The notes below the pieces were generated by a model. It had not been told where the DNA came from. It made no database searches and saw only the letters and a program-made list of their open reading frames with translations. DNA of 21,803 bases from a virus, in the IMG/VR virus record IMGVR_UViG_3300006921_000188, positions 1 to 21,803 of that record. One strand, given 5' to 3'. The translations under genes were made by a program, and so were the position numbers. This document shows positions 915 through 21,291 of this stretch, piece by piece (position 1 is the first letter of the stretch; every line of letters starts with the position of its first letter).

Positions 915-1568
915 TTAAACGCCTCCTGCCATCTTATGAATTTGTGACCAATCCATTTCAGCCAATTCATCCATACTTGGGAGTTGTATTTGTGCTTCTT
1001 CTTGTGCCTTAATGATTGTTTCCTTTTCAGCAGTTAAAGACTTGCGTAGTTGTGTAAATTCTTCCTTTAGAGAAGCAATTTCGCTTGCAGCATCATAGTT
1101 AGCCTTTGCGATTACGCTTTCTCTTGAAGAAGTTTCAGCAGTAAATCTGTTTTCAAACTGCTTTTGTAGGTTGTCGTAGGCCAACTTTTCAAGTTGTTCT
1201 TGACGGAAAGCCTCGTAAGCCTTCTCGATGTTACCAACGCTCAAATCAAGCGTTTCTAATTCATCATTACCAAATGCCTTAACAACGGGCAAATCAGAAC
1301 TTCGTGGTTTGCCATTGTCAATAACCACACGGTCTGCTGGCTCGCCTATTTCGACACCTGCACCATCTAAAGTAGATACATAGGCTTTAGCCTCAGAATC
1401 ATCCATATATTCTGCTTTTTCATCTTCTAAAGGCATAGCCTTTTCATCGGTTTCCAATGGCATACCTTTTTCATCTTCGGTGTCCATCATCTCATCTTCT
1501 TTCCTAAGAGAATTAACTTCATCCATTAATGAATCTAATTCTGCTAGGGCTTTTTCTAGTTTGCTCAT
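915..1568 (-). CDS. Nested scaffold protein from an in-frame internal start
   Basis: Inside the protease-scaffold gene, ATG 1568 (codon 180) follows GAGGCGAATAAT, a good ribosome-binding site with normal spacing. It falls between the protease domain and the coiled-coil domain, and initiation there would give a 217-aa free scaffold (MSKLEKALAELDSLMDEV...). The sampled GC content changes from about 30-37% upstream to about 38-48% over most of the downstream part, approaching the capsid gene; the first 60 bases after the start are still about 33%. Separately initiated scaffolds nested in protease genes are known, for example lambda Nu3 within gene C. The ribosome-binding site, start and composition change are seen; actual use of the start is inferred. 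Confidence 0.55.
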   Translation of the reverse strand: MSKLEKALAELDSLMDEVNSLRKEDEMMDTEDEKGMPLETDEKAMPLEDEKAEYMDDSEAKAYVSTLDGAGVEIGEPADRVVIDNGKPRSSDLPVVKAFGNDELETLDLSVGNIEKAYEAFRQEQLEKLAYDNLQKQFENRFTAETSSRESVIAKANYDAASEIASLKEEFTQLRKSLTAEKETIIKAQEEAQIQLPSMDELAEMDWSQIHKMAGGV

Positions 1569-5147: not shown

Positions 5148-5383
5148 TATTGTCCACCTGCTCTTTCCACCATTTTGTGAATTTGTGACCAATCCATACT
5201 ATCAACATCAATAGTAGTGGTATTGTTGTCCATTCTAGGAGTAGGGCTTTCTGCTACTACTAGTCCTGCTTTCATTAAAATATTATCTTTAGCATATAGA
5301 GTCTTTTCTAACGCTTCAACTTTTGCAGATAGAGCCTTTACTATCTCTAACATCTCTTGATTAATTGTATTTTCTTCTGTCAT
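5147..5383 (-). CDS. 78-aa coiled-coil protein with scaffold-type C-terminal DWSQIHKM tag
   Basis: The start overlaps the previous stop (ATGA) and is preceded by AAGGAGG. Residues about 1-40 form a short coiled coil (heptad pattern EMLEIVKALSAKVEALEKTL). A Pro/Thr/Asn linker follows, and the protein ends SMDWSQIHKMVERAGGQ. The nine-residue MDWSQIHKM peptide is identical to that near the C-terminus of the protease-scaffold. I infer a mini-scaffold, scaffold cofactor or competitor that contacts the same partner, probably the capsid protein or portal. No enzymatic motif is present. The identical peptide is seen; the partner is guessed. Confidence 0.8.
   Translation of the reverse strand: MTEENTINQEMLEIVKALSAKVEALEKTLYAKDNILMKAGLVVAESPTPRMDNNTTTIDVDSMDWSQIHKMVERAGGQ
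5171..5197 (-). repeat. Copy 2 of the 27-nt direct repeat encoding MDWSQIHKM (78-aa protein)
   Basis: This is the second copy, in the same orientation about 4.2 kb upstream in the operon, near the 3' end of a 78-codon gene. Amino-acid identity is 9/9 with two silent base differences, suggesting duplication or convergence maintained by selection on the peptide. Confidence 0.85.
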
Positions 5384-7826: not shown

Positions 7827-8156
7827 TTATTCACCTTTAAGTTTAAAATCATCTAGTTTAATTATTCCTTGTGTTTTAACTAATATCTTTATCAATTCTT
7901 CTTTAGTTAATTCATTTAGTTGTTCTTCAAATGCGTTCATTAATTGAAGGTGGGTTGAATCAGCCAACATATTTTCGTAATCTTCATCAACATAATCTAA
8001 AGTATCTTCTTCTACATCTTTAATTCTGCCAAATTTATCTTTATCTGAACCACCGACTAGTTTAATTCTTCTTGGGTCTTGACCACCCTCTTTATGACTA
8101 AAGATGGTTTCATCTTTATCCTTACGGCTTTCTTTAATTATTTTTCTCCAAGTCAT
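7827..8156 (-). CDS. W-tagged small protein (MTWRKIIK), putative prohead cargo
   Basis: The 109-aa protein starts MTWRKIIKESRKDKDE. ATG 8156 is chosen over an in-frame ATG nine bases upstream because GAGG sits at normal distance only from the downstream ATG, and the gap to the previous stop is then the usual single base. After the tag comes a charged, probably disordered stretch, an acidic patch (VEEDTLDYVDEDYE) and a C-terminal helical region (about 70-105, LTKEELIKILVKTQGI). No family is recognised. The tag groups it with several other proteins of this operon. Confidence 0.75.
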   Translation of the reverse strand: MTWRKIIKESRKDKDETIFSHKEGGQDPRRIKLVGGSDKDKFGRIKDVEEDTLDYVDEDYENMLADSTHLQLMNAFEEQLNELTKEELIKILVKTQGIIKLDDFKLKGE

Positions 8157-8162
8157 ATTAAT
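8148..8162 (-). promoter_or_regulatory. Start cassette ATTAATATGACTTGG (copy at 8156)
   Basis: The same stop-start-MTW string as at 20921-20935 and 5737-5751, with one base different (ACT for ACA, silent for Thr). GAGGATG lies just upstream. Confidence 0.6.
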
Positions 8163-8409
8163 CATCCTCTTTTAAGACTTTAAGCAATCTGCGTTCTAAT
8201 TCATCTAATGTCTTAGTACCGCCAAGCATTTTATTTTTCTGTCTAATAGCACTAAGTAATTCTTTCTCACTACCTTTAAATCCTTGACCATGACTAAATT
8301 CATCTCTAATTCGTCTAACTTCAACTTGTCTTTCGTGCCTTCTATCCATCTCTTTAAAGTCACCAAAAGCCATTTCATCTTCTTTTAGAATTATTTTCCA
8401 TTCTTCCAT
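8158..8409 (-). CDS. W-tagged small protein (MEEWKIILK), putative prohead cargo
   Basis: The 83-aa protein starts MEEWKIILKEDEMAFGDF. ATG 8409 is preferred to a TTG at 8418, which would lie inside the portal stop region. The preceding TAA is one base away, matching other junctions here. After the tag, a charged Arg/Glu-rich helix (RRHERQVEVRRIRDE) and a second helix (about 60-82) suggest a small helical protein. It directly follows the portal, so connector or internal-head association is plausible but not shown. Confidence 0.75.
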   Translation of the reverse strand: MEEWKIILKEDEMAFGDFKEMDRRHERQVEVRRIRDEFSHGQGFKGSEKELLSAIRQKNKMLGGTKTLDELERRLLKVLKEDD

Positions 8410-8410
8410 T

Positions 8411-10042
8411 TTAACCAACTCTTCTTTCTGTTCTTTGGTCTACATTCTGATTTCCGGCATCTAAAGGTAATCCTGTGAGTCTCTTATCTGGCCCTTGTGC
8501 CATAGAGGGTTTATTTCTTGTGGTCGCAGGATTTTCTTGCGGAGTCGACATAGCCTGTTCTTGCATTTGTCCCATTTGTGAAGCATCAATGTTTGTTCCT
8601 GCATATGGGTCTGCTTCTGCCTGTTCTTCTCCTTCTGCCGGTTGTTCTTCTTCAACAGGCTGAGGTTTTTCATAAGTAAAGTTACCGTCTTCATCCATAT
8701 CAACTTCAAATCCTAAATTTTTAATAGAGGCAGCAATATTAACTTCTATCTCTTTCTTTCTTAGTGAAGCAATTTCATCTTCTTCTTCACTAGGAGGAAG
8801 TTTCAAATCCCAATCAGTAATACCAAATTGCTTAATCAAGAAGGGGAATACATAATTGTTATATACATTTTGAGCCATTTGAACTGCCCTATTAGTAACA
8901 AGTATCTGCATACCTTCATTATTTAATCCTCCGCTTGTAGTATTGTCAGCCATGAAGACTTTACTTACACCATAAAACGCTGATATTCTATCTCTCAAAT
9001 CATCTTTAACAGAAACATAATCCATTTCCTTTAGACTATCCATAAACTTAATCCATTCAACAGCCCCTTTACCATTTTCTGCTTCTATTCCCATAACAGG
9101 GATAAAATGAGGGTCAGTTTCCATTTTTTCTTTAACGGAACGCCAAAAAGTTCTCATAGATTCCATATTTCTAGTTTGTACTGCAAGCAAACCTTTAGGC
9201 ATCCTACTCTTAGTATATGAAGAATTAACATAGTTTTCCATAGCAATTAGAGTAGTAATATGATTATATAGAGTAATAACAGGAGATAAACCATACAATC
9301 TAGAAGGACTATACTTACTAAAGTGTAAAACTTCACCCTTTAAGAAATACTGGTCTTTACCATTTACTCTATTAACATAATGAACAGGGGCTAAATTACC
9401 ACCACACTCTTCACACATTTCATGGGCTTCAGCAGATATAATACTACGGTGATTGATACAAGTAAATCCTTTTGTGCCTCTTTGTCCTAATTCATCAGAA
9501 TAAATAGCCATAGTAACGGGGTCGCCACGATATATTTCCTTGATACGGTGCATTCTTATCTTACCGTTACCATCTAAAAAGTATTCTTTGACTAAAACAA
9601 TATAAGCATCATCTATTACATTCAAATCGTCTTCTAGTTCTTTGAGAACATCAATAAACAACTGTTCTGATTTATTAACATAGCCTTCAATAAAATCTTC
9701 AGCATACTCTAATTGTTTTACATCAGGTATTTGTAAATCATCACTTCCACACCTAGAACATTGTTGAACAGGTCTTTTATGTTCTTTCTTACAAGTATTA
9801 CAACGGGCTTCGTATGCCTTTTCCCAAACATATCCTCTTCTAAACACTTCTTGTTTTAATTGGGTAATACAAGTTCTTGCTATTACAGAGTTTTGAATGA
9901 TATGATAAATAATAGGGGCGGTCATTAGGCTTGCTTGCTGCCTTTCTTGAATACCTATGTTGAATACTTTTCTATCCGCAGGTTTAGGAGTTGAACGCCT
10001 AAACAAATTAGTGAACGAGAATCGTCTCTTTTCTTCAACCAT
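8411..10042 (-). CDS. Portal protein with two inserted zinc ribbons
   Basis: The 543-aa product has the order and character of HK97/SPP1-type portals: an N-terminal FNIGIQERQQASLM segment, the VLHFSKYSPSRLYGLSPVITLYNHI region (about 238-262), and the DDLRDRISAFYGVSKVFM...SGGLNNEGMQ region (347-379). Portals form the dodecameric ring for DNA entry and exit. Two metal-binding insertions are visible: CNTC...CSRC (Cys81, 84, 95, 98) and a less regular C-x2-H...CEEC set (Cys195, His198, Cys210, Cys213). The C-terminal about 90 residues are Glu/Gln/Pro-rich and look disordered. ATG 10042 follows GGGGTG. The protein lies downstream of TerL in the same operon with five genes between. Confidence 0.88.
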   Translation of the reverse strand: MVEEKRRFSFTNLFRRSTPKPADRKVFNIGIQERQQASLMTAPIIYHIIQNSVIARTCITQLKQEVFRRGYVWEKAYEARCNTCKKEHKRPVQQCSRCGSDDLQIPDVKQLEYAEDFIEGYVNKSEQLFIDVLKELEDDLNVIDDAYIVLVKEYFLDGNGKIRMHRIKEIYRGDPVTMAIYSDELGQRGTKGFTCINHRSIISAEAHEMCEECGGNLAPVHYVNRVNGKDQYFLKGEVLHFSKYSPSRLYGLSPVITLYNHITTLIAMENYVNSSYTKSRMPKGLLAVQTRNMESMRTFWRSVKEKMETDPHFIPVMGIEAENGKGAVEWIKFMDSLKEMDYVSVKDDLRDRISAFYGVSKVFMADNTTSGGLNNEGMQILVTNRAVQMAQNVYNNYVFPFLIKQFGITDWDLKLPPSEEEDEIASLRKKEIEVNIAASIKNLGFEVDMDEDGNFTYEKPQPVEEEQPAEGEEQAEADPYAGTNIDASQMGQMQEQAMSTPQENPATTRNKPSMAQGPDKRLTGLPLDAGNQNVDQRTERRVG

Positions 10043-10060
10043 ATGTTACACCCCTATGAC

Positions 10061-10192
10061 TTAGGCAGGTTCGACCTCTGTTATGAAGGTTCCTAACATG
10101 TTTTCAGGGCAACCTGCTTTAATCCAACATGACTTACAATAACCAAAAGGATAGTCCTGCTTAAAACAAATACAAATCCCGCAATAACTCAA
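10061..10192 (-). CDS. 43-aa cysteine-rich microprotein, TTG start
   Basis: This frame fills most of the space between the basic-protein gene and the portal. TTG 10192 overlaps the previous TGA (TTGA) and is preceded by GGTGGAAT at good spacing. The product is MSYCGICICFKQDYPFGYC followed by KSCW...C; cysteines at 4, 7, 9, 19, 22 and 28 form CxxC-type pairs, suggesting a small zinc knuckle. It ends at TAA 10061, 18 bases before the portal start. TTG is also inferred at 14455, which makes this start more believable. A compact metal-binding virion or regulatory peptide is possible; no family is assigned. Confidence 0.55.
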   Translation of the reverse strand: MSYCGICICFKQDYPFGYCKSCWIKAGCPENMLGTFITEVEPA

Positions 10193-10680
10193 CAATTCCA
10201 CCTTCTTCTAGCGGCCTTTGCCTTTTCGCTATAAGTACCATCATCACGCTTAAATCCTCTTGACCTTGAACAGAAGTTCTTGCGTCTTTTAGCGGCTTTA
10301 CTGCCACGCTTTAATTTGCTTGGTTTAGTAGTAACAGGGGCTTTAAGATTAGCACCTGTTTCACGCTTAAACTTAGCACGACCTTTAGCACTTAATCCTC
10401 CAGTCTTTGCATGAATCTTTTTGTTATAACCCTTGAAAGGTTTTTTCTTTAATACTTCTTGCCAATTAGATTTAGCAAGACGAGGCCGAGAGGCTATTCC
10501 AGCGAAATCTTGCAGTATTGGCTTTCTAGTTTTATATTTTGCTTTTAAGTCATCAATAATTTGCCCACTGTCTTTTATCCGCATTCTCTCATTAAATAGT
10601 TTATAAAATTCTAAAACGGCTTCATCAGGCAAGTTTCCAAAATTAAAATTTTTCCGATATTCTTTTACATTAATAGTCAT
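10189..10680 (-). CDS. Basic protein with DUF6321-like C-terminus and internal WQEVLKKK
   Basis: The 163-aa protein is rich in Lys and Arg. The region from about 90 onward (KTGGLSAKGRAKFKRETG ... SKAAKRRKNFCSRSRGFK ... ARRRWNC) matches a pattern I know from small basic proteins of marine phages and some large viruses (DUF6321-like, from memory). Residues 72-80, NWQEVLKKK, closely resemble the N-terminal tag of the 696-aa protein (MWQEVLIRK), here internal. The basic character suggests binding to packaged DNA or RNA. ATG 10680 overlaps the preceding stop (ATGA) with GGAGG upstream. Function is not established. Confidence 0.75.
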   Translation of the reverse strand: MTINVKEYRKNFNFGNLPDEAVLEFYKLFNERMRIKDSGQIIDDLKAKYKTRKPILQDFAGIASRPRLAKSNWQEVLKKKPFKGYNKKIHAKTGGLSAKGRAKFKRETGANLKAPVTTKPSKLKRGSKAAKRRKNFCSRSRGFKRDDGTYSEKAKAARRRWNC

Positions 10681-11048
10681 ACCCCTTTCCTCCTTTTATA
10701 AGTTTTACAAGCACCACAAGTCGGCCTACATCTTTGTTTAGTTCCTTTAGAAGCATCTTTACGACCACAAGGTTTTGTTCCTTCTTTATCATCTTCACAT
10801 GATTGGCAGGAAACCCAACCCTTTTGACCATCTCCGCCTTTTCTTGAGAACCAACCGTGTAATCCCGATTCCTTTTCTCTTTTGAAATTATCTCCGCCCT
10901 TCTTTACAGAATTACCCCAATTCTTCGCACCAACTTTCCTGCATTGAACTAAAGCACCGCTAGCATAAGCCGAAGGCCATTTTTTATAGCGGCTCTTTAC
11001 TTTATGATAACAAGCATCTTGTTTCTTCTTAAGTTGTTCAAACCACAT
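10677..11048 (-). CDS. Cys-rich basic protein with DUF5872-like motifs, W-tagged (MWFEQLKKK)
   Basis: The 123-aa protein starts MWFEQLKKKQDACYHKVKSRY. I prefer ATG 11048 (GGTGG upstream, 11-nt overlap with the LAGLIDADG gene) over earlier in-frame GTG codons. The PSAYASGALVQCRK segment (25-38) and the later GLHGWFSRKGGDGQKGWVSC ... PCGR ... CRPTCGAC pattern recur in marine phage and giant-virus proteins (I recall DUF5872). Multiple cysteines suggest metal binding and the charge suggests nucleic-acid binding. The N-terminus fits the W-tag pattern loosely (W-x-x-L-K). Paired with the next basic gene, it may coat or condense packaged DNA; this is inferred. Confidence 0.75.
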   Translation of the reverse strand: MWFEQLKKKQDACYHKVKSRYKKWPSAYASGALVQCRKVGAKNWGNSVKKGGDNFKREKESGLHGWFSRKGGDGQKGWVSCQSCEDDKEGTKPCGRKDASKGTKQRCRPTCGACKTYKRRKGV

Positions 11049-12402
11049 GACTACCACCAATTTGTTCTAATGAGTCCATAGTGGACATCTTACAATTACC
11101 TTGTAATTTAGCAATATCATCTAAGTATATTCCTTCCTTTAACCAATCAAAACCTACATGGTCTTTATGATTCTCCCATTTCATTAACTTAAATATCTCA
11201 TCACAGCGAGGCTTATACCATTCTGCTTTCTTATATGATTTCTTCATACGAATTAATTCTAATAGTAACTCAGCATTACCTTTCTTTAATCTAAAATGGG
11301 GCAAGCACTTAGTTAGTAAATCAGTAACATCTGCTTGAGAATAAAAATTCAATCGGTTAATTAACCTAGTATCTTGTGGAGATTTCTGGTCTAAGTGCAT
11401 TCTCCCATAACCTATTGATTTGTGCATTTCTTCCATAAATGCCCTGCCTCTTGAACCTGTTGCTACTAAACCAACTCTAGGATTCATATTACGGTCTAAT
11501 GTAATGTAGCCGTCAGAGTCAATAAAAGCGGCAGTATAAGCCCAAATATTTTTCTTCAACATAGTGGGTACTTTATGATAAGCACCATCAACTGAAGCAA
11601 TATCTAACTTCTTAATCATTTTAGATATAATATTAGGAGAAGTGATTTTAGACATGCTTATAGGCATTCTTTCATGTATTCCTCTAGCACCAATTCCCGG
11701 ATTTTCACATACCATTTTAACAATAAAATCTTCTTGTCTTTCTTTCTTAGTTTTATTTAATGATTGGTCAGATACTTCAGCAATACAGTTTCTAAAACTT
11801 TTCTTGGCTAAAGACATAGCCTTAGATAAACTACTATATTCTTTTGAATACACCATGTCTTTCTGCTCTAATTCTGCTTCCCAATACTTACAAAGAGAAT
11901 CCACTACTTTCTTTCTTTTAGAGGAATCTTTTATTTTATTTAACTTATGTAGGTCTTTTTCATTATACCTCATTTTATTTAATGGAATCTTATATGGGTT
12001 CAGCCAATAAATAGAATCAATGCACTTACTTAAATGGTCACTATAAGCATCTATCATAGTATCAATTGCTTTAGTCATTTTATCTCGTTGACTACCTTTT
12101 AACTTTCTACGGCTCTTTCTCATCTTTCTAATCAAATCAGGAATAGTTTGGTCTTGAATAGTATAGTTAGGAGGAAAGGCACTTAATTGTTTCTTAGCAT
12201 CACTAGCGTTAATCCTTAAAGTATCTGATAGTTTAGTTATCTCTTCATGCTCGGACATAACATAAGAATTGCCTAACAGTTTACCAATATTAACTCCTAA
12301 GTCTGCTTCAAGAGCAGTTTCGACTTCATCCTTCTCTTCCTTTTTATCCTTTAATTCTTCAATTTGAGGAATAGATTCGATTAGTTCTTCATCAGTTGGC
12401 AT
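11038..12402 (-). CDS. Protein with winged-helix region and LAGLIDADG endonuclease domain
   Basis: The 454-aa protein has an acidic N-terminal segment (1-35), then a helical region rich in Lys (90-220). A probable winged helix-turn-helix follows (223-278, ENPGIGARGIHERMPISMSK). The LAGLIDADG motif is AYTAAFIDSDGYI at 288-300 (D297 expected to bind metal), with the family's later KKGNAELLLELIRM stretch at 373-386. One motif copy implies homodimer action if catalytic. It stands alone between TerL and the basic-protein genes and does not interrupt an exon, so it may be a homing endonuclease or may have been recruited for packaging or DNA processing. ATG 12402 follows AGGTGATT. Confidence 0.82.
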   Translation of the reverse strand: MPTDEELIESIPQIEELKDKKEEKDEVETALEADLGVNIGKLLGNSYVMSEHEEITKLSDTLRINASDAKKQLSAFPPNYTIQDQTIPDLIRKMRKSRRKLKGSQRDKMTKAIDTMIDAYSDHLSKCIDSIYWLNPYKIPLNKMRYNEKDLHKLNKIKDSSKRKKVVDSLCKYWEAELEQKDMVYSKEYSSLSKAMSLAKKSFRNCIAEVSDQSLNKTKKERQEDFIVKMVCENPGIGARGIHERMPISMSKITSPNIISKMIKKLDIASVDGAYHKVPTMLKKNIWAYTAAFIDSDGYITLDRNMNPRVGLVATGSRGRAFMEEMHKSIGYGRMHLDQKSPQDTRLINRLNFYSQADVTDLLTKCLPHFRLKKGNAELLLELIRMKKSYKKAEWYKPRCDEIFKLMKWENHKDHVGFDWLKEGIYLDDIAKLQGNCKMSTMDSLEQIGGSHVV

Positions 12403-12413
12403 ACATAATCACC

Positions 12414-13844
12414 TCAAAAATTCAAACCTATGGCGTTCATATTAGTCTTCTTTGCCTTAGAAGGAACATCGTCAAACAGCCCTAAATCATCAAGGAGTAT
12501 GAAGGTTTCTGATGATTGATATGTCGCCGCATTCGCTAATGCTAGACTCATCACCATATCGTCATGCGCCCCAATTCCTTCAAACTTTCCTTTGTCTGTA
12601 ATAGCAAACATAGATAATTCTTCAACTAAGACTGAAGTAACTCTTCGGCTCTCTTCATTACCATAAGGGAAATTTATTTTCTTATTTTCTAAAGTCATTT
12701 GAAGATTTAAGATAATCTCTTGTTTCTTTCTTCTAGTAGTATTAAAGTCATGAACATTTAAGTCTGCAACTTGACGAAGTTCTTGGGTAAAAGATTTAGC
12801 AAATGTATTTGTCTCAAATAGAATAACTTCCGGTCTAAATATTTTACCAATCAATTGTACTTTTTGTATATTTTCTCTAAACTCTACATTCTTTGACCTG
12901 TCTACATAAATAACTGATTTATTTTCATTTTCATCCATTTCTAGAACAGTTATTACATTATAGTCTCCATCAGTAGAGATAGCAGGGTCTACCCCTACAA
13001 AATACTTATATCCTTCTCTTCTCATAGACTTTAAAATCAAATCTTTGTTCTTAGCATGGTCTAAATACTCAGGATTAAACAAAGAAGTACCTGTTGAGAT
13101 AGGCACACACATATATTCTCTTGTGAACATTAAAGACCCTACTTCCGCTTTTCTTGCCATTAAAGCATCATAATTCCATCTTTCAGGCCATAATGGTTCA
13201 TTGAGGGCATTGAGGCATGGATAAGTATGGACAGTATATGCTGGATTTTCCGCTAGTTGTTGGTAAATATCCGTATAACTGAAAGGAGTGCCTATAACCC
13301 TCAATGAAGCCGTGTGGTGAAGTGTTGGTATCATGTCTCCATAAAACCAATCGGTTACTTTCTGAATACCCGTCATACTAAACTCTTTTAGCGGGTCATC
13401 AATTACTATTTCTTGAGGGTGTAATCCACGAATCTGTGAACCTACCGACCTTTCAAGGATTTGATTACCATTAGTTAATGTAATGTTACCAATCGCCCAT
13501 CCTCTAGCGGGTTTATACTTTTTAAGCATAGGGTGAGTAAACATCTTATCAATGTCTCTCATGTGAACAAGAGTCTGCTTTTGGTTAGAAGAAATATAAA
13601 GCATTTGATATGGAGGCTCTTCAAAAATTAACTTCCATACTACCCAACTGTGCATAAATACAGATTTTCCGTGGTCACGACTACAAATAATTACAGTTCT
13701 TTGAGTATTGTTCATTAATTCATGCCATTCTTGGATATATGAGGGGAAATCAAAACCTAATACATTCTGAAAAAAATATGGAAAAGAGTTTTTAGATAAC
13801 TCCATATCCATTTGATGTTCAAAATTAAAAGGTTCTAATTCCAT
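12414..13844 (-). CDS. terL: Terminase large subunit (packaging ATPase-nuclease)
   Basis: The 476-aa length is typical. Walker A is the variant CSRDHGKS (54-61); Walker B is EIVIDD (145-150); the coupling motif is GTPF (185-188). The RNase H-like nuclease shows FVGVDPAIS (D286), ILFETN (E344) and AHDDM (D428/D429). The ATPase threads DNA into the prohead through the portal and the nuclease cuts the concatemer. ATG 13844 shares one base with the previous TAA and follows GGAGGT. No clear small terminase is seen; the preceding 203-aa protein occupies that place but carries an N-terminal W tag and no obvious DNA-binding fold. Confidence 0.95.
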   Translation of the reverse strand: MELEPFNFEHQMDMELSKNSFPYFFQNVLGFDFPSYIQEWHELMNNTQRTVIICSRDHGKSVFMHSWVVWKLIFEEPPYQMLYISSNQKQTLVHMRDIDKMFTHPMLKKYKPARGWAIGNITLTNGNQILERSVGSQIRGLHPQEIVIDDPLKEFSMTGIQKVTDWFYGDMIPTLHHTASLRVIGTPFSYTDIYQQLAENPAYTVHTYPCLNALNEPLWPERWNYDALMARKAEVGSLMFTREYMCVPISTGTSLFNPEYLDHAKNKDLILKSMRREGYKYFVGVDPAISTDGDYNVITVLEMDENENKSVIYVDRSKNVEFRENIQKVQLIGKIFRPEVILFETNTFAKSFTQELRQVADLNVHDFNTTRRKKQEIILNLQMTLENKKINFPYGNEESRRVTSVLVEELSMFAITDKGKFEGIGAHDDMVMSLALANAATYQSSETFILLDDLGLFDDVPSKAKKTNMNAIGLNF

Positions 13845-14455
13845 TATAGTTTACCTCCTAATGCTTCTACTTTTGTTTTTAATTTTTGTGCCATCATTTT
13901 TTCACCATGTCTAATTAATTCATGGTAAAAAGAAGAAACTGCCTTTGTTCTTTCAGGAGTGAGTGGATTACTTACTAATTCTTGTAATAAGGTTTTATAC
14001 TTTTCCCTAAACTCTGCTTGTAATTCAAACAATTTATTATTCCAAGTTCGATTCCTTGTTTCTGATACAGGGGGATATTTACTTAAAGCATTCCAAGTTT
14101 TTTTAACATTAGTTTTTTCCCATATATTAGTGGACATAACGGGGCTTTTATTACCCATTCCTGTTGAAGAAGTATTGCCCGCAAGTGGCCCCTTTTCTTT
14201 AGGCTCATAACCATATTCTCTAATTAATTTAACGAAGGGCTTAATACTACTTAAATTTCTTAATTTAATCAAATGTGCTTTTTCCGAAGAAGTACCATAT
14301 TCTTTTATAGCATCAGTATAATGCTTGGCTATCATTTTTTGCAATTCATGAGTAGCAATAGATTCACCATCCAATTCATCAACTACTCTCCTAACGGCTT
14401 CTTTCATCATTTGGAAGTTAAATTTCTTCCTTTTGATTATATGAAACCAAGTCAA
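13844..14455 (-). CDS. W-tagged protein (MTWFHIIK) before TerL, TTG start
   Basis: The 203-aa product starts MTWFHIIKRKKFNFQ if TTG 14455 is used. TTG is chosen because AGGTGA sits at normal distance, the gap to the previous TAA is one base, and the product then matches the tag of other genes; a GTG nine bases upstream overlaps the ribosome-binding site itself. The body has a helical N-terminal third (VRRVVDELDGESIATHELQKMIAKHY), a Gly/Ser/Pro linker (90-115) and a helical C-terminal half. It sits where a small terminase is often found, but there is no confident HTH. It could be a small-terminase substitute or internal head protein. Confidence 0.72.
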   Translation of the reverse strand: MTWFHIIKRKKFNFQMMKEAVRRVVDELDGESIATHELQKMIAKHYTDAIKEYGTSSEKAHLIKLRNLSSIKPFVKLIREYGYEPKEKGPLAGNTSSTGMGNKSPVMSTNIWEKTNVKKTWNALSKYPPVSETRNRTWNNKLFELQAEFREKYKTLLQELVSNPLTPERTKAVSSFYHELIRHGEKMMAQKLKTKVEALGGKL

Positions 14456-14456
14456 G

Positions 14457-15284
14457 TTATTCACCTAACCAACTAGAATCATCCTTCTCAAAGGTTTCTG
14501 TTGACAGTTTACCTAATACTTCGTCTATAAAATCTGACATTTTACTCTTTTTAAGAGTAGACTTCCAGACAGACTTATTTAAGTTTAGTTTCTGAACCAT
14601 CATATCCATAATGCTTTCTAATTTCATTTTTTGGTCTTGTACCACAAACCTAGCCCATGTATTATTAGGTCTTACCTTTTGTATAAATTCCTGAAAACTC
14701 TTTAGGTCTTCTTGACTAATTGGGCCTTCTTGAGACTCAACCATTTCTTCAATCCTATCTAAGTCTTCATCTAAAAAACCTCTAGATTTAGAATAATTCT
14801 GTCTTTGAGGGTATCTTGCTCCAAAAGAAATTCTAAGTTCAGCAAATAGTTCCGATAATTTGGAATTAGATTCTACTATCTCTTCCATAGTTTCTTCAAC
14901 TACTTCTTCTGTAATCTCAGACTCCATTTGATTAACTGTTTTTTGTTTGGCTCTTGCGCTTGAAATCTCTCCGGCTTTATTCATTTCTTTAACTCTTTTA
15001 TCTGCCTGTGCTTCGGTTTCATATCCCAAATGCGGAGAAGGATGAATTAAAGAATAATTCTTTCCTGTTTTTGGACTAACTTCTCCTTGAAATCGAGTAT
15101 TCCTAACAATAAATCTATCCCCTATTTCATTTCTAACTGCTCGCTCAACCATGTCTCTATGCTTTTTAGGAACCTTTTCTAATGCAATATCAATAAACTT
15201 ATCAATATACCCATCAACTTCTTCCTTTGCATCTGCGTCTAAATCTTTAATCTTTGATTTTTCTGCCATTTTACTAATAATCAT
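14457..15284 (-). CDS. Helical protein of unknown function
   Basis: The 275-aa protein starts MIISKMAEKSKIKDLDADAKEEV. ATG 15284 follows GGAGGACGATAG and lies one base after the previous stop. Most of it is predicted helical and strongly charged, with an acidic coiled-coil segment (about 120-145, ESEITEEVVEETMEEIVE). A short central stretch around 58-85 (FIVRNTRFQGEVSPKTGKNYSLIHPSPHLGYETEAQA) looks more globular. No motif for catalysis or membrane insertion is seen. It sits in the early part of the packaging and head operon, next to other unknown genes; role unassigned. Confidence 0.7.
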   Translation of the reverse strand: MIISKMAEKSKIKDLDADAKEEVDGYIDKFIDIALEKVPKKHRDMVERAVRNEIGDRFIVRNTRFQGEVSPKTGKNYSLIHPSPHLGYETEAQADKRVKEMNKAGEISSARAKQKTVNQMESEITEEVVEETMEEIVESNSKLSELFAELRISFGARYPQRQNYSKSRGFLDEDLDRIEEMVESQEGPISQEDLKSFQEFIQKVRPNNTWARFVVQDQKMKLESIMDMMVQKLNLNKSVWKSTLKKSKMSDFIDEVLGKLSTETFEKDDSSWLGE

Positions 15285-15285
15285 A

Positions 15286-16062
15286 CTATCGTCCTCCGTC
15301 TTCTATATCATAACGAGTATTGCTACTTCTTAACATTTCTTCCAAAATGCCACTATGGAGTTTTTTTCTTTGGTTTTCATTTTCCATCCCTCTTTTAAGG
15401 TAATAAATAACCATTCTTTTATTGTCTTGTCCTAAATTAGTAAATCTAACATAGCGTTGTCTATCTTTAGGATAAGTGTCTTGAATAATAGAATCTTTTA
15501 GCCTTAGCCAAGCATTATCGCTGATTCCCGCTTTCATCACAGACCACCATTGGGGTATAGGGTCGTCGGGCCAAATTGCCTTATTAAATGTGTCCCAATC
15601 CCACGCCTTCTTGATGCCCCAATCTTCACCGTATCTTTGCTTAAGTTTACCAATTAATTCTTCAGGTATTCCTTGAGTATCAGTAGGGTTAATGTTATAG
15701 AATTGACTTTGGGTTTTAACCCAATCTTCTTGACTACCACGACCAGCCTTAAATCCTGCAATTTGTGGTTTTCCTTCGGGTAGTCTTTCTTGTCTAGCAG
15801 CCGTCAATGCTTTATAATTACCTTTATGGCCTAAATCATCTCTTCCTTTAAGACCACCTAATAAAATATATTCAGGTTCTTCTCTCCACCCAACAGCACC
15901 TACAACTTTACCTTCATCAGTTACTCTAACTAACCACTTATCTAAATCATACCAGCCACTAATTGCAGGGTCACGCTCATACGGCATATCGGGATTGTCT
16001 TCATCCCATTTACTTTTCATCTCGCTAAAAGAATGAATAGCAGACTCAACCTTATATGCCAT
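15286..16062 (-). CDS. Unknown protein, possibly GNAT-like N-terminal domain
   Basis: The 258-aa protein is rich in Trp and Lys. Residues 42-92 (KWLVRVTDEGKVVGAVGWRE ... LGGLKGRDDLGHKGNYKALTAARQ) resemble the strand-turn and acetyl-CoA-loop order of GNAT acyltransferases, but the loop is not canonical, so this is a weak call. The second half (about 145-240) carries aromatic residues (WGIKKAWDWDTF, PQWWSVMK) and a basic helix. ATG 16062 follows AAGGTGATATA and is four bases from the previous stop. If it is an acyltransferase it could modify a virion or host protein; otherwise unknown. Confidence 0.65.
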   Translation of the reverse strand: MAYKVESAIHSFSEMKSKWDEDNPDMPYERDPAISGWYDLDKWLVRVTDEGKVVGAVGWREEPEYILLGGLKGRDDLGHKGNYKALTAARQERLPEGKPQIAGFKAGRGSQEDWVKTQSQFYNINPTDTQGIPEELIGKLKQRYGEDWGIKKAWDWDTFNKAIWPDDPIPQWWSVMKAGISDNAWLRLKDSIIQDTYPKDRQRYVRFTNLGQDNKRMVIYYLKRGMENENQRKKLHSGILEEMLRSSNTRYDIEDGGR

Positions 16063-16066
16063 TATA

Positions 16067-18565
16067 TCACCTTCTGAAATGAGACTTAATTAAATACACT
16101 TGGTCTTCACTAATACCATATTCTTTTGATATGTTACTATGAGAATCAATATCCTTTACAATGTTTTCTACTTCTAAATGACTTAAATCTATATTTTCTT
16201 CAATGTGCATTTTATTAATAACCTGTTCTATACCATCATAACTAAATGGAGTAAAGGCATAGTTTACTTCTTTACCTAGTTCTTTTCTGATAGCATCATG
16301 AGCCTTTAACATCTTATTAAATAATACAGGTATATCTTCTTCTACTGTATTATAAATTGATTTGAGCCTATTATATTGTTTCTTTTTCTCATCACTATTA
16401 GTTAATATTCCTTGATTTTGGTCTAAGTAATGAGGTAATGCAAATATAGGGAAGGCTTCTCTATTATTATAATCAGTATTAAATAGAGACTTTCTTTCTT
16501 TTATTTCCTTATTATCTATTTCATCTTCTGCTAAATCTAAATCTTCACTTTCTTCCATAAAGTGATATAATAAAGCAGAGACATAATTAGCATTCTGTTC
16601 AGAAGTAGATTTACCAAACATTTCAGTAAGGGAATCTACGGCTAACTTTGCCTGTCTTACAAAATCATCTGTAATTTTAATATTAGGAGAATCAACATAC
16701 TCTAAGAAATCGGCAATATTTTTCATAATATCTGCACTAACTACTCTATCTCCAGCAGTAGCCAATAGATTATAACTTTCTCCCATTACATTTGATGAGC
16801 CATATTGATTAGACCACGCCGCCAAAACCTTTATTCCTCTACCTGTTGAGTATCTCGGTACTTCAATTGGCAGCCTACCAGAATATAAAGGCAATAGATA
16901 GTATTTAGTAGCAGACTCTAATAGTTTTACTATTTCTCCACTAATTTTATCAAAGACCTCAGATTTAATATCTCCCCTTGCTTTAAATCCTTTAGGGTTC
17001 TGTCGGCCACCTCTTGTTTTTCCGCCCTTGTCTCTTAGAATATCAGAAATCATTCCTCTGTCTTTTCTTGTGACTTTAGGCTGGCCACTAAAGGTTCCTG
17101 CTCGACCTGCTGCTCTTGTTGCTACCGCAAATCCCCAACGCTTATTTGTTAATGCTTTATGAATGTCATCGAATAAATCATTAAGGGTTTCTAAAACATC
17201 TAAAGTAATATTAGTCTCTCCTTCTTCTGATTCATTAGTAGAAGCAACAAAACTTTGTCCTTTAGTAAGGTCTGCTAATGGTTTAGTTTCTACTACGGTA
17301 ATAGGCAAATGGTAATTGTCATCAGCAGATTCAAATGTTAAAGATTCTTCAATATCATCCAACATATTATTTAAATCAGTTCTGAAATCTAAAACAACAC
17401 CGTCTTTCTTAATTTCTTTAATTATTCTTCTTAACTCAGATTGGCTTTTAGTATTAAAGGCTAAAAGTTTTTTATTTCTATAAAATTCAATTGCCAACAA
17501 AGGGTCAATAATAGCATCTTCTAAATTAAAATCAATTTCTTCCATTTCAATATGGTCTGCTACAGAATCATCAATACTTTGTTTATCTCTTAAATTGGCT
17601 TCTGCATCACCACTCCAATTCTCAAACTCTAACAATGCTGCTTCAAATGCTTCTTGTTTTCCTTCAATAGCAGGGCTTTCATCCATTTCTTCTTCGGCAT
17701 CTAATAATTCTTCTTTCATAGTATTTAGATTATTAGCGAGTTCAATAGACTCTATTAATTTAATAAATCGTCCTGCGGCGGGAGGAACATCCAAATGTGA
17801 CTTCTGTAACTTAACTATATATTGTAAAGACTGACCTTCATATTTTTCTCTAATTTCATTAACCTCTATCTGAAATCTTTTCATCTTTTTATTACCGTCT
17901 TCAATGTTTTCTACAGCATCAAAGAAACCTGTTAAGTCTTCTTTAAATTGGGTATAGGGTTTATCCCCAATTTCTTCCCAATACTCATAAACATCTTCTC
18001 TAGTATCATATTCAGATAAAGATACTGCCCCTAAATATTTATAAATATCAACTTGTACTCTTTTCATATGTTGCTTACTTTCTTCAAACCTAGAAAGCCT
18101 AAAGAACTTCTTCTTCATTTTACCATAGTTGTATAATAAATTCTCACCTTCATCATAATTAAGTTTTTTAGCATAATCCTGTAACTTAGTCTCATACTCT
18201 GGAGTAGTTAGGGTTTTATCAGTAGTTTTAGATAAAGAGATACCAGAAATTTTTCTATTTGTTAATTCTTTTCTAAGTAATACCACCCTATCTTCATCAA
18301 TAGGAACATTACTCATAAGAGGCTTAAATATAATATCATCTTTAGGTGTTCTTGTTAATTTAAGTTGAGTTTTTAACTTAGTTCTAAAACCCTTTCCAGC
18401 AACATCAAGAGATTGCTTAATATCTATGCCGGTCTTTTTAGAATATTCTTCCTTAAATGCCTCAACTATTTCTTTTTCTTTATTTCTTCTACCAGCAGTA
18501 AAAGGGTCGCCAGCACCTAAGACTGACTGTATTTCTTCTTGAGTAGGTTCTCTAATTTCTGTCAT
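16067..18565 (-). CDS. 832-aa protein of unknown function
   Basis: This is the largest product of the window. It is largely helical and charged, with an acidic middle (for example near 285-345) and a strongly basic Gly/Arg-rich segment near 485-545 (RAAGRAGTFSGQPKVTRKDRG, GGKTRGGRQNPKGFK) that could contact nucleic acid. The final residues (ISKEYGISEDQVYLIKSHF) look like a helix-turn-helix end. It carries no N-terminal W tag, no membrane segment and no recognisable enzyme motif. ATG 18565 follows GAGGGAG and lies one base after the previous stop. Candidate roles are internal virion protein or large assembly factor; nothing in the sequence decides. Confidence 0.75.
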   Translation of the reverse strand: MTEIREPTQEEIQSVLGAGDPFTAGRRNKEKEIVEAFKEEYSKKTGIDIKQSLDVAGKGFRTKLKTQLKLTRTPKDDIIFKPLMSNVPIDEDRVVLLRKELTNRKISGISLSKTTDKTLTTPEYETKLQDYAKKLNYDEGENLLYNYGKMKKKFFRLSRFEESKQHMKRVQVDIYKYLGAVSLSEYDTREDVYEYWEEIGDKPYTQFKEDLTGFFDAVENIEDGNKKMKRFQIEVNEIREKYEGQSLQYIVKLQKSHLDVPPAAGRFIKLIESIELANNLNTMKEELLDAEEEMDESPAIEGKQEAFEAALLEFENWSGDAEANLRDKQSIDDSVADHIEMEEIDFNLEDAIIDPLLAIEFYRNKKLLAFNTKSQSELRRIIKEIKKDGVVLDFRTDLNNMLDDIEESLTFESADDNYHLPITVVETKPLADLTKGQSFVASTNESEEGETNITLDVLETLNDLFDDIHKALTNKRWGFAVATRAAGRAGTFSGQPKVTRKDRGMISDILRDKGGKTRGGRQNPKGFKARGDIKSEVFDKISGEIVKLLESATKYYLLPLYSGRLPIEVPRYSTGRGIKVLAAWSNQYGSSNVMGESYNLLATAGDRVVSADIMKNIADFLEYVDSPNIKITDDFVRQAKLAVDSLTEMFGKSTSEQNANYVSALLYHFMEESEDLDLAEDEIDNKEIKERKSLFNTDYNNREAFPIFALPHYLDQNQGILTNSDEKKKQYNRLKSIYNTVEEDIPVLFNKMLKAHDAIRKELGKEVNYAFTPFSYDGIEQVINKMHIEENIDLSHLEVENIVKDIDSHSNISKEYGISEDQVYLIKSHFRR

Positions 18566-18566
18566 A

Positions 18567-20657
18567 TTACTCCCTCAATAACTTTGCCTGTGTGAATTTC
18601 TCCTTTGCTACTATGGCTGAACTTCTAATAGTGTTTCCAAATTTACGCTCAGTATTATATTGTTCAGGATTACTTGCGAAATCTTCTAAGGTTAGATTAA
18701 ATCCTCCAATCAACTGTTTCCTTGCTTCATTTAGGAAACTACTCATTTTATTATTTAATTCTTCGGCTAACTTAATCTTCTCATTTCCTTCGACTCCATC
18801 AATGGCCTTGAAGGTTGCGGCAATATCAGTTCCCGAAATCTTAGCCCTGCTACTTAATTTGGCTAAAAACCTAAGACTATTTTCAGGAGATAGTTTCTCC
18901 ATGTAGGCAGCAGCACCTTGTTTAGTCTCTAAGAATAGTCTAGTTAATGGCATATCCTTAGTCTTTTTGTTATCCTTTTCGATGTCTTCTCCCCTCTGAA
19001 AAGACATTAACAGACTAGTAAAAGGACTCATATTTTGGGATTCAGCAAACATAACTCTTCTTAGTTGCCTAAAGGCTTCTTGCTTTTCATCAGTTTCTAC
19101 CCCACTCACTCCTAAAGCATCTTTTATTTCGTCTAAAGTGTTTTCAAAGTCATCCGGCCCCAACTCATCATTATCAAAAACAACTACCGCATAGGCTTTT
19201 TCATCTAGCATTGATTCAACTTCTTTACCTTCATAAGTTTTATAGCGTATAGAGAAATCACCTAGTTCCCCCTCTATATTTTCTTTATTTTCTTCATCAA
19301 GGCTATCCCACCATTTCTTAATGCCTTGTATTTCGGCAAGAGTAAAATATTTATTTAGTTCGTTTAATCTATTCATTTGGTAAGTATTGGCAAAATTACC
19401 CACTTCTGTAGAAACAGTGGGGTATTCTTCAAGGTATTCTCTTAATTTCTTTAAATCGTTTTTTTCATTCCCTGTGAATCTTTCGCTTAGTTCACTAAAA
19501 AGATTTAAATTAATACCATGTTCACTATCTTTCCCTTTAGTTAAAGCCTCATAAATATCTTTTTCTATTATGGTTCTTGCTAGTTTATCAGAAGTAAAAC
19601 CCCTCATTCTTATTCCTTCAAATAGTTTGTCATACCACTTATCATCAAAGGTACTTCCTAAAACAATATCTAAATAAGGATTCAATACTAAAGTTTTAGT
19701 TTTTTCTGAACTTCTGCTTAAAATAGCATTAGGAGGAAAAGAACTACCATTCTCTAATCGCTTAGGAATGAATTTTTTAATATCTCCTTCTATTGCATCT
19801 AGCGCAGCCAAGTAACTACGAACATGTGTGTAAGTAGTAATGGCATTAGGAGTCATTTTTTTGTTTTGTCCAATAAAAGCGTCTAGTTCTGTTAAATTGG
19901 AAGTAATGTCTTTAGCCGATTGTAAGTCTGGCCCATAAGGTCGTAAGTTAGTCGCATAAATGTCCCTCATTCCTTCAGTATTCTTTAAAAACTTCATAAA
20001 ATCGGTAGGATTACCAACATGAGTAATAATTTCATCATTTTCTATGGACATTTTAGGTTTTTTATCACCTGTATGTAACTCTTTAAGAGATTTGTTGGCT
20101 TTTTCAACAAATTCTTGAATATTCTTTGTAAAATCACCTTCTTCTTTACCTTCGGGCATTTTATTTTTGAACTTTAATGACCAAGTAGGGGCCAATGACT
20201 TAAAATATGATAATTTTGACACTAATTTTTTATTTTTGCTTCTTTGGTCTTTACTTAACTTAGGAAGTTTAGAAATTTTAGCCTTTATTTCTGAAAATTG
20301 TTCCATATTTCCGTCATTGTAGGCTTTAAGACCTTCATCAACTAACTTTTCTATGTTAGGTGCGTCTTCAAGATTACCTACGCTTAGTATTTTTTCATAA
20401 TTTGCTTTAATTTCCTCATCACTTATCTTAGAAGGGATGGGAAATGCTGCTAATACTCTTTGTAGTCCTTCATCTACACTTAATCTTTTTAGATTATTAA
20501 TCATTGAACGGTATTTAGTAGGTAATCCTCTATTACTATCAGTATATTCTTTAATTGAAGCAAGTGCCTTTTCTGTTAAGTTACTGTCTTGAATTATCAT
20601 AGCCAATCTTATCTCACTAGGAGGTAAGGCTTTTCTAATTAAGACTTCTTGCCACAC
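18567..20657 (-). CDS. 696-aa W-tagged protein (MWQEVLIRK), unknown function
   Basis: I choose GTG 20657. AAGTGATTAAG precedes it with the same stop-to-start distance (5 bases) as the junction at 20929, and the product then begins MWQEVLIRKALPPSEIRLAMII, matching the W tag. An earlier GTG at 20666 overlaps the previous stop and lacks a good ribosome-binding site. The long body is helical, acidic in places (near 460-530) and shows no membrane segments, zinc sites or known catalytic motifs. Because it appears tagged, I suggest a large internal or ejected protein packaged with the DNA. The same tag core WQEVL recurs inside the basic protein at 10189-10680. Confidence 0.75.
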   Translation of the reverse strand: MWQEVLIRKALPPSEIRLAMIIQDSNLTEKALASIKEYTDSNRGLPTKYRSMINNLKRLSVDEGLQRVLAAFPIPSKISDEEIKANYEKILSVGNLEDAPNIEKLVDEGLKAYNDGNMEQFSEIKAKISKLPKLSKDQRSKNKKLVSKLSYFKSLAPTWSLKFKNKMPEGKEEGDFTKNIQEFVEKANKSLKELHTGDKKPKMSIENDEIITHVGNPTDFMKFLKNTEGMRDIYATNLRPYGPDLQSAKDITSNLTELDAFIGQNKKMTPNAITTYTHVRSYLAALDAIEGDIKKFIPKRLENGSSFPPNAILSRSSEKTKTLVLNPYLDIVLGSTFDDKWYDKLFEGIRMRGFTSDKLARTIIEKDIYEALTKGKDSEHGINLNLFSELSERFTGNEKNDLKKLREYLEEYPTVSTEVGNFANTYQMNRLNELNKYFTLAEIQGIKKWWDSLDEENKENIEGELGDFSIRYKTYEGKEVESMLDEKAYAVVVFDNDELGPDDFENTLDEIKDALGVSGVETDEKQEAFRQLRRVMFAESQNMSPFTSLLMSFQRGEDIEKDNKKTKDMPLTRLFLETKQGAAAYMEKLSPENSLRFLAKLSSRAKISGTDIAATFKAIDGVEGNEKIKLAEELNNKMSSFLNEARKQLIGGFNLTLEDFASNPEQYNTERKFGNTIRSSAIVAKEKFTQAKLLRE

Positions 20658-20662
20658 CTTAA

Positions 20663-20929
20663 TCACTTATCTCTATATTCTTCAACTTTACTTAATATTG
20701 AATTGAATTTCTGTTCAAGGATTCTTCCAAAGTAATTAAAATCTGCGTCTACATATTCGCTTGAAATTTCATTACTTAGGTTGTCGAGCATTTCTTTAAC
20801 TTCAGGAATCATCTTTCTGAAATTTTTTTCTGCCATTATGCTTTTTCTATTCTTAATGTCTGAAATCCTATCATCTCTGAGTCTTCCGTCTTTGCCTTGC
20901 ATTTTTATTATCTCTTCTTTCCATGTCAT
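20663..20929 (-). CDS. W-tagged small protein (MTWKEEIIK), putative prohead cargo
   Basis: The 88-aa product starts MTWKEEIIKMQGKDGRLRDD. ATG 20929 is preferred to a GTG nine bases upstream, because that GTG is part of the AGGTGAT ribosome-binding site. The body is a charged helical protein (ISDIKNRKSIMAEKNF ... FNSILSKVEEYRDK). The upstream gene's TGA lies inside the ribosome-binding site, so translation is probably coupled. No family is recognised. Confidence 0.78.
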   Translation of the reverse strand: MTWKEEIIKMQGKDGRLRDDRISDIKNRKSIMAEKNFRKMIPEVKEMLDNLSNEISSEYVDADFNYFGRILEQKFNSILSKVEEYRDK

Positions 20930-20935
20930 ATTAAT
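20921..20935 (-). promoter_or_regulatory. Start cassette ATTAATATGACATGG (copy at 20929)
   Basis: The reference copy of the repeated start cassette, with AAGGTG immediately upstream. It is identical to 5737-5751 and one base different from 8148-8162. Confidence 0.6.
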
Positions 20936-21291
20936 CACCTTGTAAATGCGCCTCTTCTTTTAGAAGTAGGCAATTCATCATAATGATAAAGTCTTACACT
21001 TTTCTCGTTATGAGGGTCTTCTGTCATTAAATTACCATCTGGCATCTTATGGGTTTTACCTTTCCATTCTTTGCCATCTTTAGTATAATGCTTTCTAGTG
21101 GGAGACTTTTCCATCTTTTCCTCTGAACCACGCATTATGTGAAAATCCTGTGCATCAATCGCACCATTATGGTTACGGTCTAATTTCTTTTGTTTAGGGC
21201 TTAGTTTTTCCATTGTTGGTGCTGCCCCATATTTTTCACAAACATCTTTTCCGCATCCGCAATTTCTTTTAATTATATTTTCCCAACTCAT
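20935..21291 (-). CDS. W-tagged protein (MSWENIIK) with EF-hand/dockerin-like calcium loop
   Basis: The 118-aa protein has three visible parts. The N-terminal tag MSWENIIKRN is followed by a cysteine cluster (C11, C13, C18). A canonical 12-residue EF-hand loop lies at 38-49, DRNHNGAIDAQD: D1, N3, N5, G6, I8 and D12 all fit, with Asp at position 12 as in dockerins. The C-terminal part HYTKDGKEWKGKTHKMPDGN ... SVRLYHYDEL follows a short pattern I have seen in small marine-phage proteins. Calcium binding is therefore likely. ATG 21291 overlaps the previous TGA (ATGA) with GAGGAATTACA before it. The role may be structural stabilisation inside the virion; this is inferred. Confidence 0.78.
   Translation of the reverse strand: MSWENIIKRNCGCGKDVCEKYGAAPTMEKLSPKQKKLDRNHNGAIDAQDFHIMRGSEEKMEKSPTRKHYTKDGKEWKGKTHKMPDGNLMTEDPHNEKSVRLYHYDELPTSKRRGAFTR

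Follow-up and report, generated by a model that had tools for sequence, protein, structure and literature searches.

A tryptophan-centred peptide shared by unrelated magrovirus proteins resembles a cargo address label

Encapsulin cargo-loading peptides are short terminal motifs that dock unrelated enzymes inside an HK97-fold shell, and scaffolds of the P22 and phi29 type carry a terminal helix behind a long helical rod. In phage T4, the capsid-targeting sequence (CTS) of the accessory proteins IPI, IPII, IPIII and Alt has the scaffolding core as its partner. Targeting of IPIII depends chiefly on residues 4 and 7 (PMC9026906), which we checked in the T4 sequence as the Y-x-x-F of MKTYQEFIAE. 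DarB of phage P1 has an N-terminal signal, longer than 9 but no longer than 30 residues, that suffices to carry a reporter into the head, and the protein is believed to pass into the host cell; a search for a consensus among the Dar proteins found none (PMC9024508).

Here we analyse a viral DNA of 21.8 kb (the window, i.e. the whole stretch studied). A preliminary description had proposed that at least seven of its products share an N-terminal tryptophan tag that addresses them to the prohead. Its large terminase subunit (TerL) and portal protein, with up to 94-96% identity to relatives, place the window as part of the genome of a magrovirus; these head-tailed viruses infect marine Poseidoniales archaea. 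The largest relatives measure 90.9-96.9 kb; those fetched whole have a GC content of 33-35% and opposed gene blocks, and Pfam identified an RFC small subunit, an ATP ligase and an HMGL-like protein. They share the genome profile of the order Magrovirales, namely 90-100 kb, low GC, opposed replication and virion blocks, clamp loader, ligase and HMG-CoA lyase (PMC10768690). Magroviruses are known from metagenomes only (PMC10768690), and we found no magrovirus virion proteome in the literature. Our main comparison set consists of the window and eight relatives of ~95 kb, together encoding 1,088 proteins.

Tagged proteins and their place in the genome

All seven tagged products of the window are encoded on the minus strand and range from 83 to 696 aa. 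They comprise a 118-aa protein with the tag MSWENIIK (20935..21291), its start set from the open reading frame and the Shine-Dalgarno site; an 88-aa protein with MTWKEEIIK (20663..20929), where one residue is added between W and I and AAGGTGATTAAT precedes the start; a 696-aa protein with a GTG start and MWQEVLIRK (18567..20657), whose relatives start MNWFNVLK and MSWQILLK; a 203-aa protein with a TTG start and MTWFHIIK (13844..14455); a 123-aa DUF5872-like protein with MWFEQLKKK (10677..11048); and proteins of 83 aa (MEEWKIILK, 8158..8409) and 109 aa (MTWRKIIK, 7827..8156). A motif-blind gene caller, which weighs codon usage, the type of start codon and the fit to a Shine-Dalgarno site, picked seven starts identical to those claimed before. 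The motif is real, but the core first read from the window had to be redrawn: the window's copies are degenerate, and the family consensus is M-[TSN]-W-x-[DNE]-[IV]-[LI]-K. Among 139 aligned tags, W is residue 3 in 107 and K occupies position 8 in 137, and W and I/V stand three apart.

The search in relatives against a shuffled background, proposed with the original claim, gave a clear result: 137 of the 1,088 proteins contain the strict motif, compared with a mean of 1.3 and a maximum of 6 in 200 composition shuffles. After internal methionines, which served as a control, it occurred at 18 of 5,739 sites. A chance origin is ruled out by the shuffles and this control. The exact DNA pattern for MTWKDILK matched 31 stretches among 2.9 million viral contigs, 30 of them with called tags, and a control pattern in scrambled order matched none. 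That the tag might be general to viruses or cells was dismissed, as a scan of 84,980 species for DNA encoding MTWKDILK gave six matches, and no called tags lay close to any of them. We found no description of the tag in the literature searched. The tag is under protein-level selection: 99 canonical tags are encoded by 92 distinct DNA forms, the third position of codon 7 carries 0.00 bits, and conservation 5' of tagged genes is limited to the Shine-Dalgarno site. Synonymous positions vary and therefore selection acts on the peptide.

The expected clustering in the head region was borne out. Of 344 genes in the block that lies upstream of the gene for the major capsid protein (the capsid-side block), 143 have an N-terminal tag, compared with 2 of 188 tail genes and 1 of 537 opposite-strand (replication) genes (Fisher P=1.6e-76). 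An equal frequency in non-structural genes, named in the preliminary description as grounds for refutation, was thus not observed. Each genome has 13-23 tagged genes, which make up 60% and 51% of the two densest sub-blocks, and the TerS-like, TerL and portal genes lie amid them. The core head proteins of the window, all encoded on the minus strand, are themselves untagged, which counts against docking in the prohead: the portal protein (8411..10042; PHROG portal E=3e-66), TerL (12414..13844; PHROG TerL E=1.7e-54) and the major capsid protein, which is incomplete at the window edge (2..913; PHROG major head protein E=2e-4) and whose profile, compared with the PDB, reached a capsid at no more than marginal significance (E=0.17).

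Pooled over all loci, 727 distinct tagged proteins form 260 families. Representatives of 92 families, which were built after removal of the first 12 residues, align over MxWxDILK only, so that the tag is indeed common to otherwise unrelated proteins. Pfam, PHROG, PADLOC and NCBIfam scans of these 92 families assigned few functions; a PAP2-type enzyme and a GNAT-fold protein are among the tagged proteins. One cargo domain occurs untagged in bacteriophage HTVC115P (MSTKKKSTVNKAGNYTKP vs MTWEEVLKKKKKKSTVNQAGNYTKP), and the cargo with KGTGKKPKGS had no match in the phage collection. We also considered whether cyanophage homologues of tagged cargo domains bear a T4-type CTS. This found no direct support, since the DUF6321 proteins of T4-like cyanophages (MSNRIQDE..., MDNSNSIN..., MSDQNSIS...) lack it themselves; in two phages the gene directly upstream of the DUF6321 gene has one (MRTFESFLAEA, MKTYQELMEV).

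Related peptides on scaffold-like proteins and within cargo

The prohead protease (Peptidase_S78) of the window is fused to a long-helix scaffold-like region (915..2105, minus strand; Pfam E=1.3e-8; PHROG head maturation protease E=4.3e-16). Its residues 386-392 form the docking-like C-terminal helix WSQIHKM (930..950, minus strand), in which W, I, H, K and M are invariant in 34 aligned sequences. The AlphaFold2 model is poor overall (pLDDT 49.6) and usable for the helical tail only; the peptide is a predicted terminal helix behind an 80-residue helix. WSQIHKM recurs at residues 65-71 (5171..5191, minus strand) of a scaffold-like 78-aa ORF (5147-5383), and the C-terminal regions of both proteins have DWSQIHKM in common. 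Ends resembling M[DEN]W[SNAK][DEQT]IHKM were found in 67 distinct protease-scaffold and 85 distinct 78-aa-type sequences, and in distant relatives the scaffold end retains MxWx[DE][IVL][HN] with K lost. Written as M-x-W-x-[DE]-[IL]-H, the scaffold peptide departs from the cargo tag in a single hydrophobic residue, with H for L/I. Measured on the tag profile, it ranks no higher than the top few percent of all sites with a tryptophan, so that mimicry of the scaffold docking helix by the cargo tag is at most suggestive.

The claim of an N-terminal tag holds for most copies, which stand at gene starts, but others are C-terminal or lie between domains. In ORF 10189-10680, WQEVLK (residues 73-78; 10447..10464, minus strand; in fuller form NWQEVLKKK) separates an N-terminal extension from a DUF6321 domain, and three relatives have this tag at the N-terminus (MTEWQEILKKKKKPFKGYNKK). 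In ORF 15286-16062, WWSVMK (residues 172-177; 15532..15549, minus strand; in fuller form QWWSVMKAG) follows a GNAT-fold domain. The model predicts a helix standing by itself here (170-177), in a linker of low confidence behind a confident domain, which places the tag outside the fold. The GNAT-fold family keeps the tag behind this domain, whether further domains or a stop codon come next. Among matches to the tag profile away from the N-terminus, the best 19 all fall in the capsid-side block. Judged by this distribution, the motif is a putative position-independent docking motif rather than a strictly N-terminal tag.

Proposed prohead loading and alternative readings

In the reading that we consider probable, the tag acts as a short docking helix: by mimicry of the scaffold docking helix, accessory proteins, PAP2-type and GNAT-fold proteins among them, would gain entry to the head as it assembles. 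The amphipathic helix W-x-x-[IV]-[LI]-K would bring accessory cargo into the assembling prohead, where a single partner may receive both cargo tags and scaffold C-termini; the most likely candidates are the scaffold core and the inner face of the lattice of major capsid proteins. Closure of the shell would trap the docked proteins inside, and they could later be delivered along with the DNA; removal of the tag by the prohead protease would not be required. From the sequence data we infer that tagged proteins are packaged in virions. More tentatively, and with somewhat less than even confidence, the motif could be a general loading code, in which a scaffold-mimicking helix at either end of a protein or between its domains allows hundreds of cargos, enzymes and multi-cargo fusions included, to be swapped and a large, fast-evolving payload of proteins to be brought into archaeal cells.

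Recruitment to a hub outside the virion, such as a host complex, a membrane or a virus factory, would reduce the late-block position of tagged genes to a matter of late expression. A membrane or a host protein could be the target of an amphipathic W-x-x-I-L-K helix, some tagged proteins are enzymes or small proteins that have no known role in the head, and no virion data from magroviruses were found. Yet hardly any of the tail genes, which lie on the same strand, have a tag (2/188), and the scaffold/protease has conserved its related peptide; we hold this reading to be unlikely. The docking site for cargo might also be portal, TerL or TerS, and hence the portal or packaging motor instead of the capsid/scaffold lattice, for example to form one cargo ring per head or to regulate packaging. 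This would agree with the tagged genes surrounding those for the TerS-like protein, TerL and portal, and with the C-terminus of the TerS-like protein, a partial tag match (IWLDIKKRMQEKLQ or near variants) in 8 of 8 relatives. However, it is the protease-scaffold and the 78-aa protein that bear the conserved tag-related peptides, whereas portal and TerL do not, which leaves docking at the motor quite unlikely.

Far less probable is that the tag is a recognition or cleavage site of the prohead protease, internal copies being cut to free domains. K8 is near-invariant and could be a P1 residue, full-length relatives of the capsid protein have an invariant L-L-K near the N-terminus, and tag copies do occur between domains. 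Still, residues 9-10 directly after K8 show no cleavage consensus in the aligned tags, and the loss of eight residues from a cargo would be pointless unless they also dock. A cleavage site [IL]-x-K shared by tag, scaffold and capsid protein, conceived from IHK and LLK, was discarded because the scaffold peptide has lost its K in distant relatives. The preliminary description had itself named functionless copying of 5'-ends as an alternative; together with a translation-initiation feature misread as protein, this is hardly credible. The predominance of copies at gene starts would fit, but the freedom of the codon-7 third position, upstream DNA with nothing in common beyond the Shine-Dalgarno site, C-terminal and internal copies, and untagged opposite-strand genes in the same genomes all speak against it.

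If docking in the prohead is correct, we know of no earlier capsid-loading signal from an archaeal virus and, in any virus, of none with as many cargo families. A simple sequence rule would nominate ~13-23 mostly unannotated genes per genome as candidate virion or injected proteins. Magroviruses are abundant ocean viruses, and what they deliver into Poseidoniales would become directly testable. In addition, the tag can be used as a marker to spot magrovirus contigs.

Comparison with known loading systems

Like the T4 CTS, the magrovirus tag is N-terminal, about ten residues long and common to unrelated accessory proteins, and the spacing of Y4 and F7 (i, i+3), the only feature compared, equals that of W-x-x-I. 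The analogy drawn in the preliminary description is thus partly supported: it holds for this spacing, and the related peptide at the C-terminus of the scaffold/protease links the tag with the prohead. The proposed removal of the tag was not supported: the T4 sequence ends in an I-x-E protease site and is removed, whereas the magrovirus tag has a near-invariant K and no cleavage consensus behind it. MKTYQEFIAE and MTWKDILK have their layout in common and not their residues, and we do not claim common descent; the termini of T4 gp21 and gp22 showed no MKTYQEF-like ends. T4 has only a handful of tagged genes, compared with 13-23 per magrovirus genome in a block beside the head genes, and the magrovirus motif is also C-terminal and internal. 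The tagged PAP2-type and GNAT proteins would have counterparts in enzymes that are packaged, for instance Alt of T4.

Encapsulin peptides are likewise short terminal motifs on unrelated proteins, but they are usually C-terminal, follow another consensus and serve a cellular compartment rather than a virus. The DarB signal of phage P1 is similar as an N-terminal head-packaging signal and differs in the lack of a consensus among Dar proteins. As in the C-terminal docking helices of tailed-phage scaffolds, a terminal helix stands behind a rod, here reading W-x-[DE]-I-H; we know of no scaffold system in which dozens of cargo proteins copy the docking helix. Overall, by analogy, the tag looks like a cargo address label as in phage T4, but one that is far more widely used.

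Virus group and tag statistics

The window's main genes are all on the minus strand: those for prohead protease, portal, large terminase and capsid protein, plus many for small unannotated proteins. Large terminase and portal have dozens of close relatives in IMG/VR (identity up to 94% and 96%, respectively), many of them contigs of ~91-97 kb. Genes were called on eight near-complete relative genomes. By size, a GC content of 33-35%, two opposed gene blocks and genes for an RFC clamp loader, an ATP-dependent ligase and an HMG-CoA-lyase-like protein, the group fits the order Magrovirales, whose head-tailed members are associated with marine Poseidoniales archaea (PMC10768690). The 184.7-kb record IMGVR_UViG_3300021958_000021 (loci L037 and L044) carries two portal and two terminase genes ~91 kb apart and looks as if two magrovirus genomes had been joined. 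Between large terminase and portal, the window holds a 454-aa ORF (11038-12402) that is conserved in the relatives; it had no Pfam match and by eye resembles a LAGLIDADG-type endonuclease.

The preliminary description listed seven head-operon proteins sharing an N-terminal tryptophan tag, and a motif-blind gene caller picked the identical seven starts. Among the proteins of the window and the eight genomes, the strict motif occurs in 137 of 1,088, whereas 200 composition shuffles yielded 1.3 on average and never more than 6; after internal methionines, the control, it was found in 18 of 5,739 cases. Tryptophan occupies residue 3 in 14.3% of these proteins versus 1.3% overall. The consensus of 139 aligned tags is [STN]-W-[KEQ]-[DNE]-[IV]-[LI]-K, with the lysine present in 137. 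The tag is thus confirmed, and we have hardly any doubt that it is functional at the protein level. A 121-aa protein family (window 5380-5745; 86 distinct relatives) mostly starts with MTWD[FY]Y, keeping tryptophan at residue 3 while the remainder of the tag is absent.

Distribution and selection on the peptide

Taking related genomes as independent, the block upstream of the capsid gene on the same strand has N-terminal tags in 143 of its 344 genes, compared with 2 of 188 genes on the tail side downstream and 1 of 537 opposite-strand genes. Hence the motif is not equally frequent in non-structural genes; equal frequency is what the preliminary description had named as speaking against an address tag. 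Within the block, density reaches 60% and 51% in the two central sections and is lower at the far end (18%) and immediately ahead of the capsid gene (5%); each genome has 13-23 tagged genes. Clustering with the first 12 residues removed gave 95 tagged-protein families in these genomes; over all loci there are 260. When one representative each of 92 families was aligned jointly, MxWxDILK emerged with practically no further conserved column. At a further locus, L167:496-4419, seven consecutive tagged magrovirus genes with starts WWNIIK, WWDIIK, WFDILK or WRSILK form a tandem array of paralogues, at least six of which have a subsequent motif like SSRQLVNLDWDEE.

The 99 canonical tags are written in 92 distinct 24-base forms. 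At codon 7, compared over 67 unrelated families, the encoded residue is always L, I or V, yet the third base has an information content of 0.00 bits; upstream of the tag start, only the Shine-Dalgarno position is conserved. Together, these features show that selection acts on the tag as a peptide. Of the 31 stretches matched by a DNA pattern for MTWKDILK across the whole of IMG/VR, 30 had called tags; among the stretches with a terminase match, identity to the window terminase goes down to 56%. A pattern for MSWEDILK matched 75 stretches; among the 74 loci that were new, 68 carried one or more called tags and 63 carried two or more. A control pattern of the same residues in scrambled order gave no match. 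Outside viruses, a set with one genome per species for 84,980 species of bacteria and archaea gave six matches to the MTWKDILK pattern, with no called tags nearby. As far as searched, the tag appears confined to these viruses.

Tags at domain ends and probable cargo proteins

A profile of the N-terminal tags was run over all other positions, and the 19 best matches all fall within the block. They include a family of ~370-480 aa (25 distinct sequences) whose C-terminal end reads KSWQDILRW or related, and another in which a conserved domain is followed by a tag and then by a stop codon or varied extra domains; some of its members have a second tag. The window member (15286-16062, minus strand) carries the tag WWSVMK behind its domain. 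AlphaFold2 predicts a confident domain for residues 1-153, with a GNAT-like fold (best PDB match E=1.3e-4), and then an isolated helix 170-177 on the tag. In the DUF6321 protein, the tag is N-terminal in three relatives; in the window and two others, extensions precede it and make it internal. Given these C-terminal, post-domain and internal copies, the tag acts like a short linear motif located at the ends of domains. Modularity is shown by the STVNQAGNYTKP domain, which starts with MSTKKKSTVNKAGNYTKP in a pelagiphage and MTWEEVLKKKKKKSTVNQAGNYTKP in magroviruses.

Few tagged families are recognisable: DUF6321, DUF5872, a PAP2-type protein with SGH motif, a GNAT acetyltransferase and a marginal CotH match. 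Strongly basic proteins (net charge > +0.1 per residue) make up 24% of tagged but 6% of other proteins, as would be expected for DNA-associated internal proteins.

Head assembly and comparison with T4

The S78 protease carries a fused scaffold-like region that ends in approximately M-[DE]-W-[SNA]-[DEQ]-I-H-K-M (67 distinct sequences), and a separate 78-aa protein has a similar end (85 distinct sequences). In 34 aligned proteases W, I, H, K and M of this peptide are invariant; distant relatives keep M-x-W-x-[DE]-[IVL]-[HN] and have mostly lost K. A weak AlphaFold2 model of the protease-scaffold protein places a long helix at 290-371, followed by a short one at the C-terminus that coincides exactly with WSQIHKM. 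By eye, this end is strikingly similar to the cargo tag M-x-W-x-D-I-L-K. Its tag profile score, however, ranks it only among the best few percent of sites with a tryptophan; we therefore infer with good reason, and do not count as a result, that scaffold end and cargo tag would dock in common. Capsid loading by docking is the best explanation of the tag and, in our judgement, a moderately probable one.

The head operon also contains a large protein with an ATP-dependent DNA ligase domain (window 2149-4664), located between scaffold-like genes and protease and present in all eight relatives. The reading frame of this head-operon ligase is broken into two parts in the window, whereas it is one piece in the relatives. 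At least one relative also has another ligase within its replication block. The last 99 residues of a terminase-small-subunit-like protein, encoded at window 21503-21802, end in IWLDIK(K/Q); their identity among the relatives checked is 92-95%, higher than for most neighbours.

The openly available papers searched on magroviruses and capsid targeting, most of them covered by title, abstract or term matches, do not mention the tag. A ten-residue capsid-targeting sequence (CTS) is common to the internal proteins of T4; suppressor analysis assigned targeting mainly to its residues 4 and 7 and processing to residues 8 and 10 (PMC9026906). The T4 genes start with MKTYQEFIAE (ipII, ipIII) and MKTFKEFTST (ipI). 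In two T4-like cyanophages (L202:451-1110 and L204:454-1146), the second gene upstream of that for the large terminase starts, in close resemblance to the T4 sequence, with MRTFESFLAEA or MKTYQELMEV, and adjoins a DUF6321 gene. The T4 CTS and the magrovirus tag both place a hydrophobic residue three positions after an aromatic one, exactly the W-x-x-I spacing. For the part of the T4 signal that serves proteolysis, the tag has no clear counterpart. In T-even phages the internal proteins vary while the CTS is kept (PMC3012670), the same evolutionary pattern as in the 260 tagged magrovirus families. We do not claim that the tag belongs to the T4 CTS family; by layout and distribution it is CTS-like and may work like a CTS.
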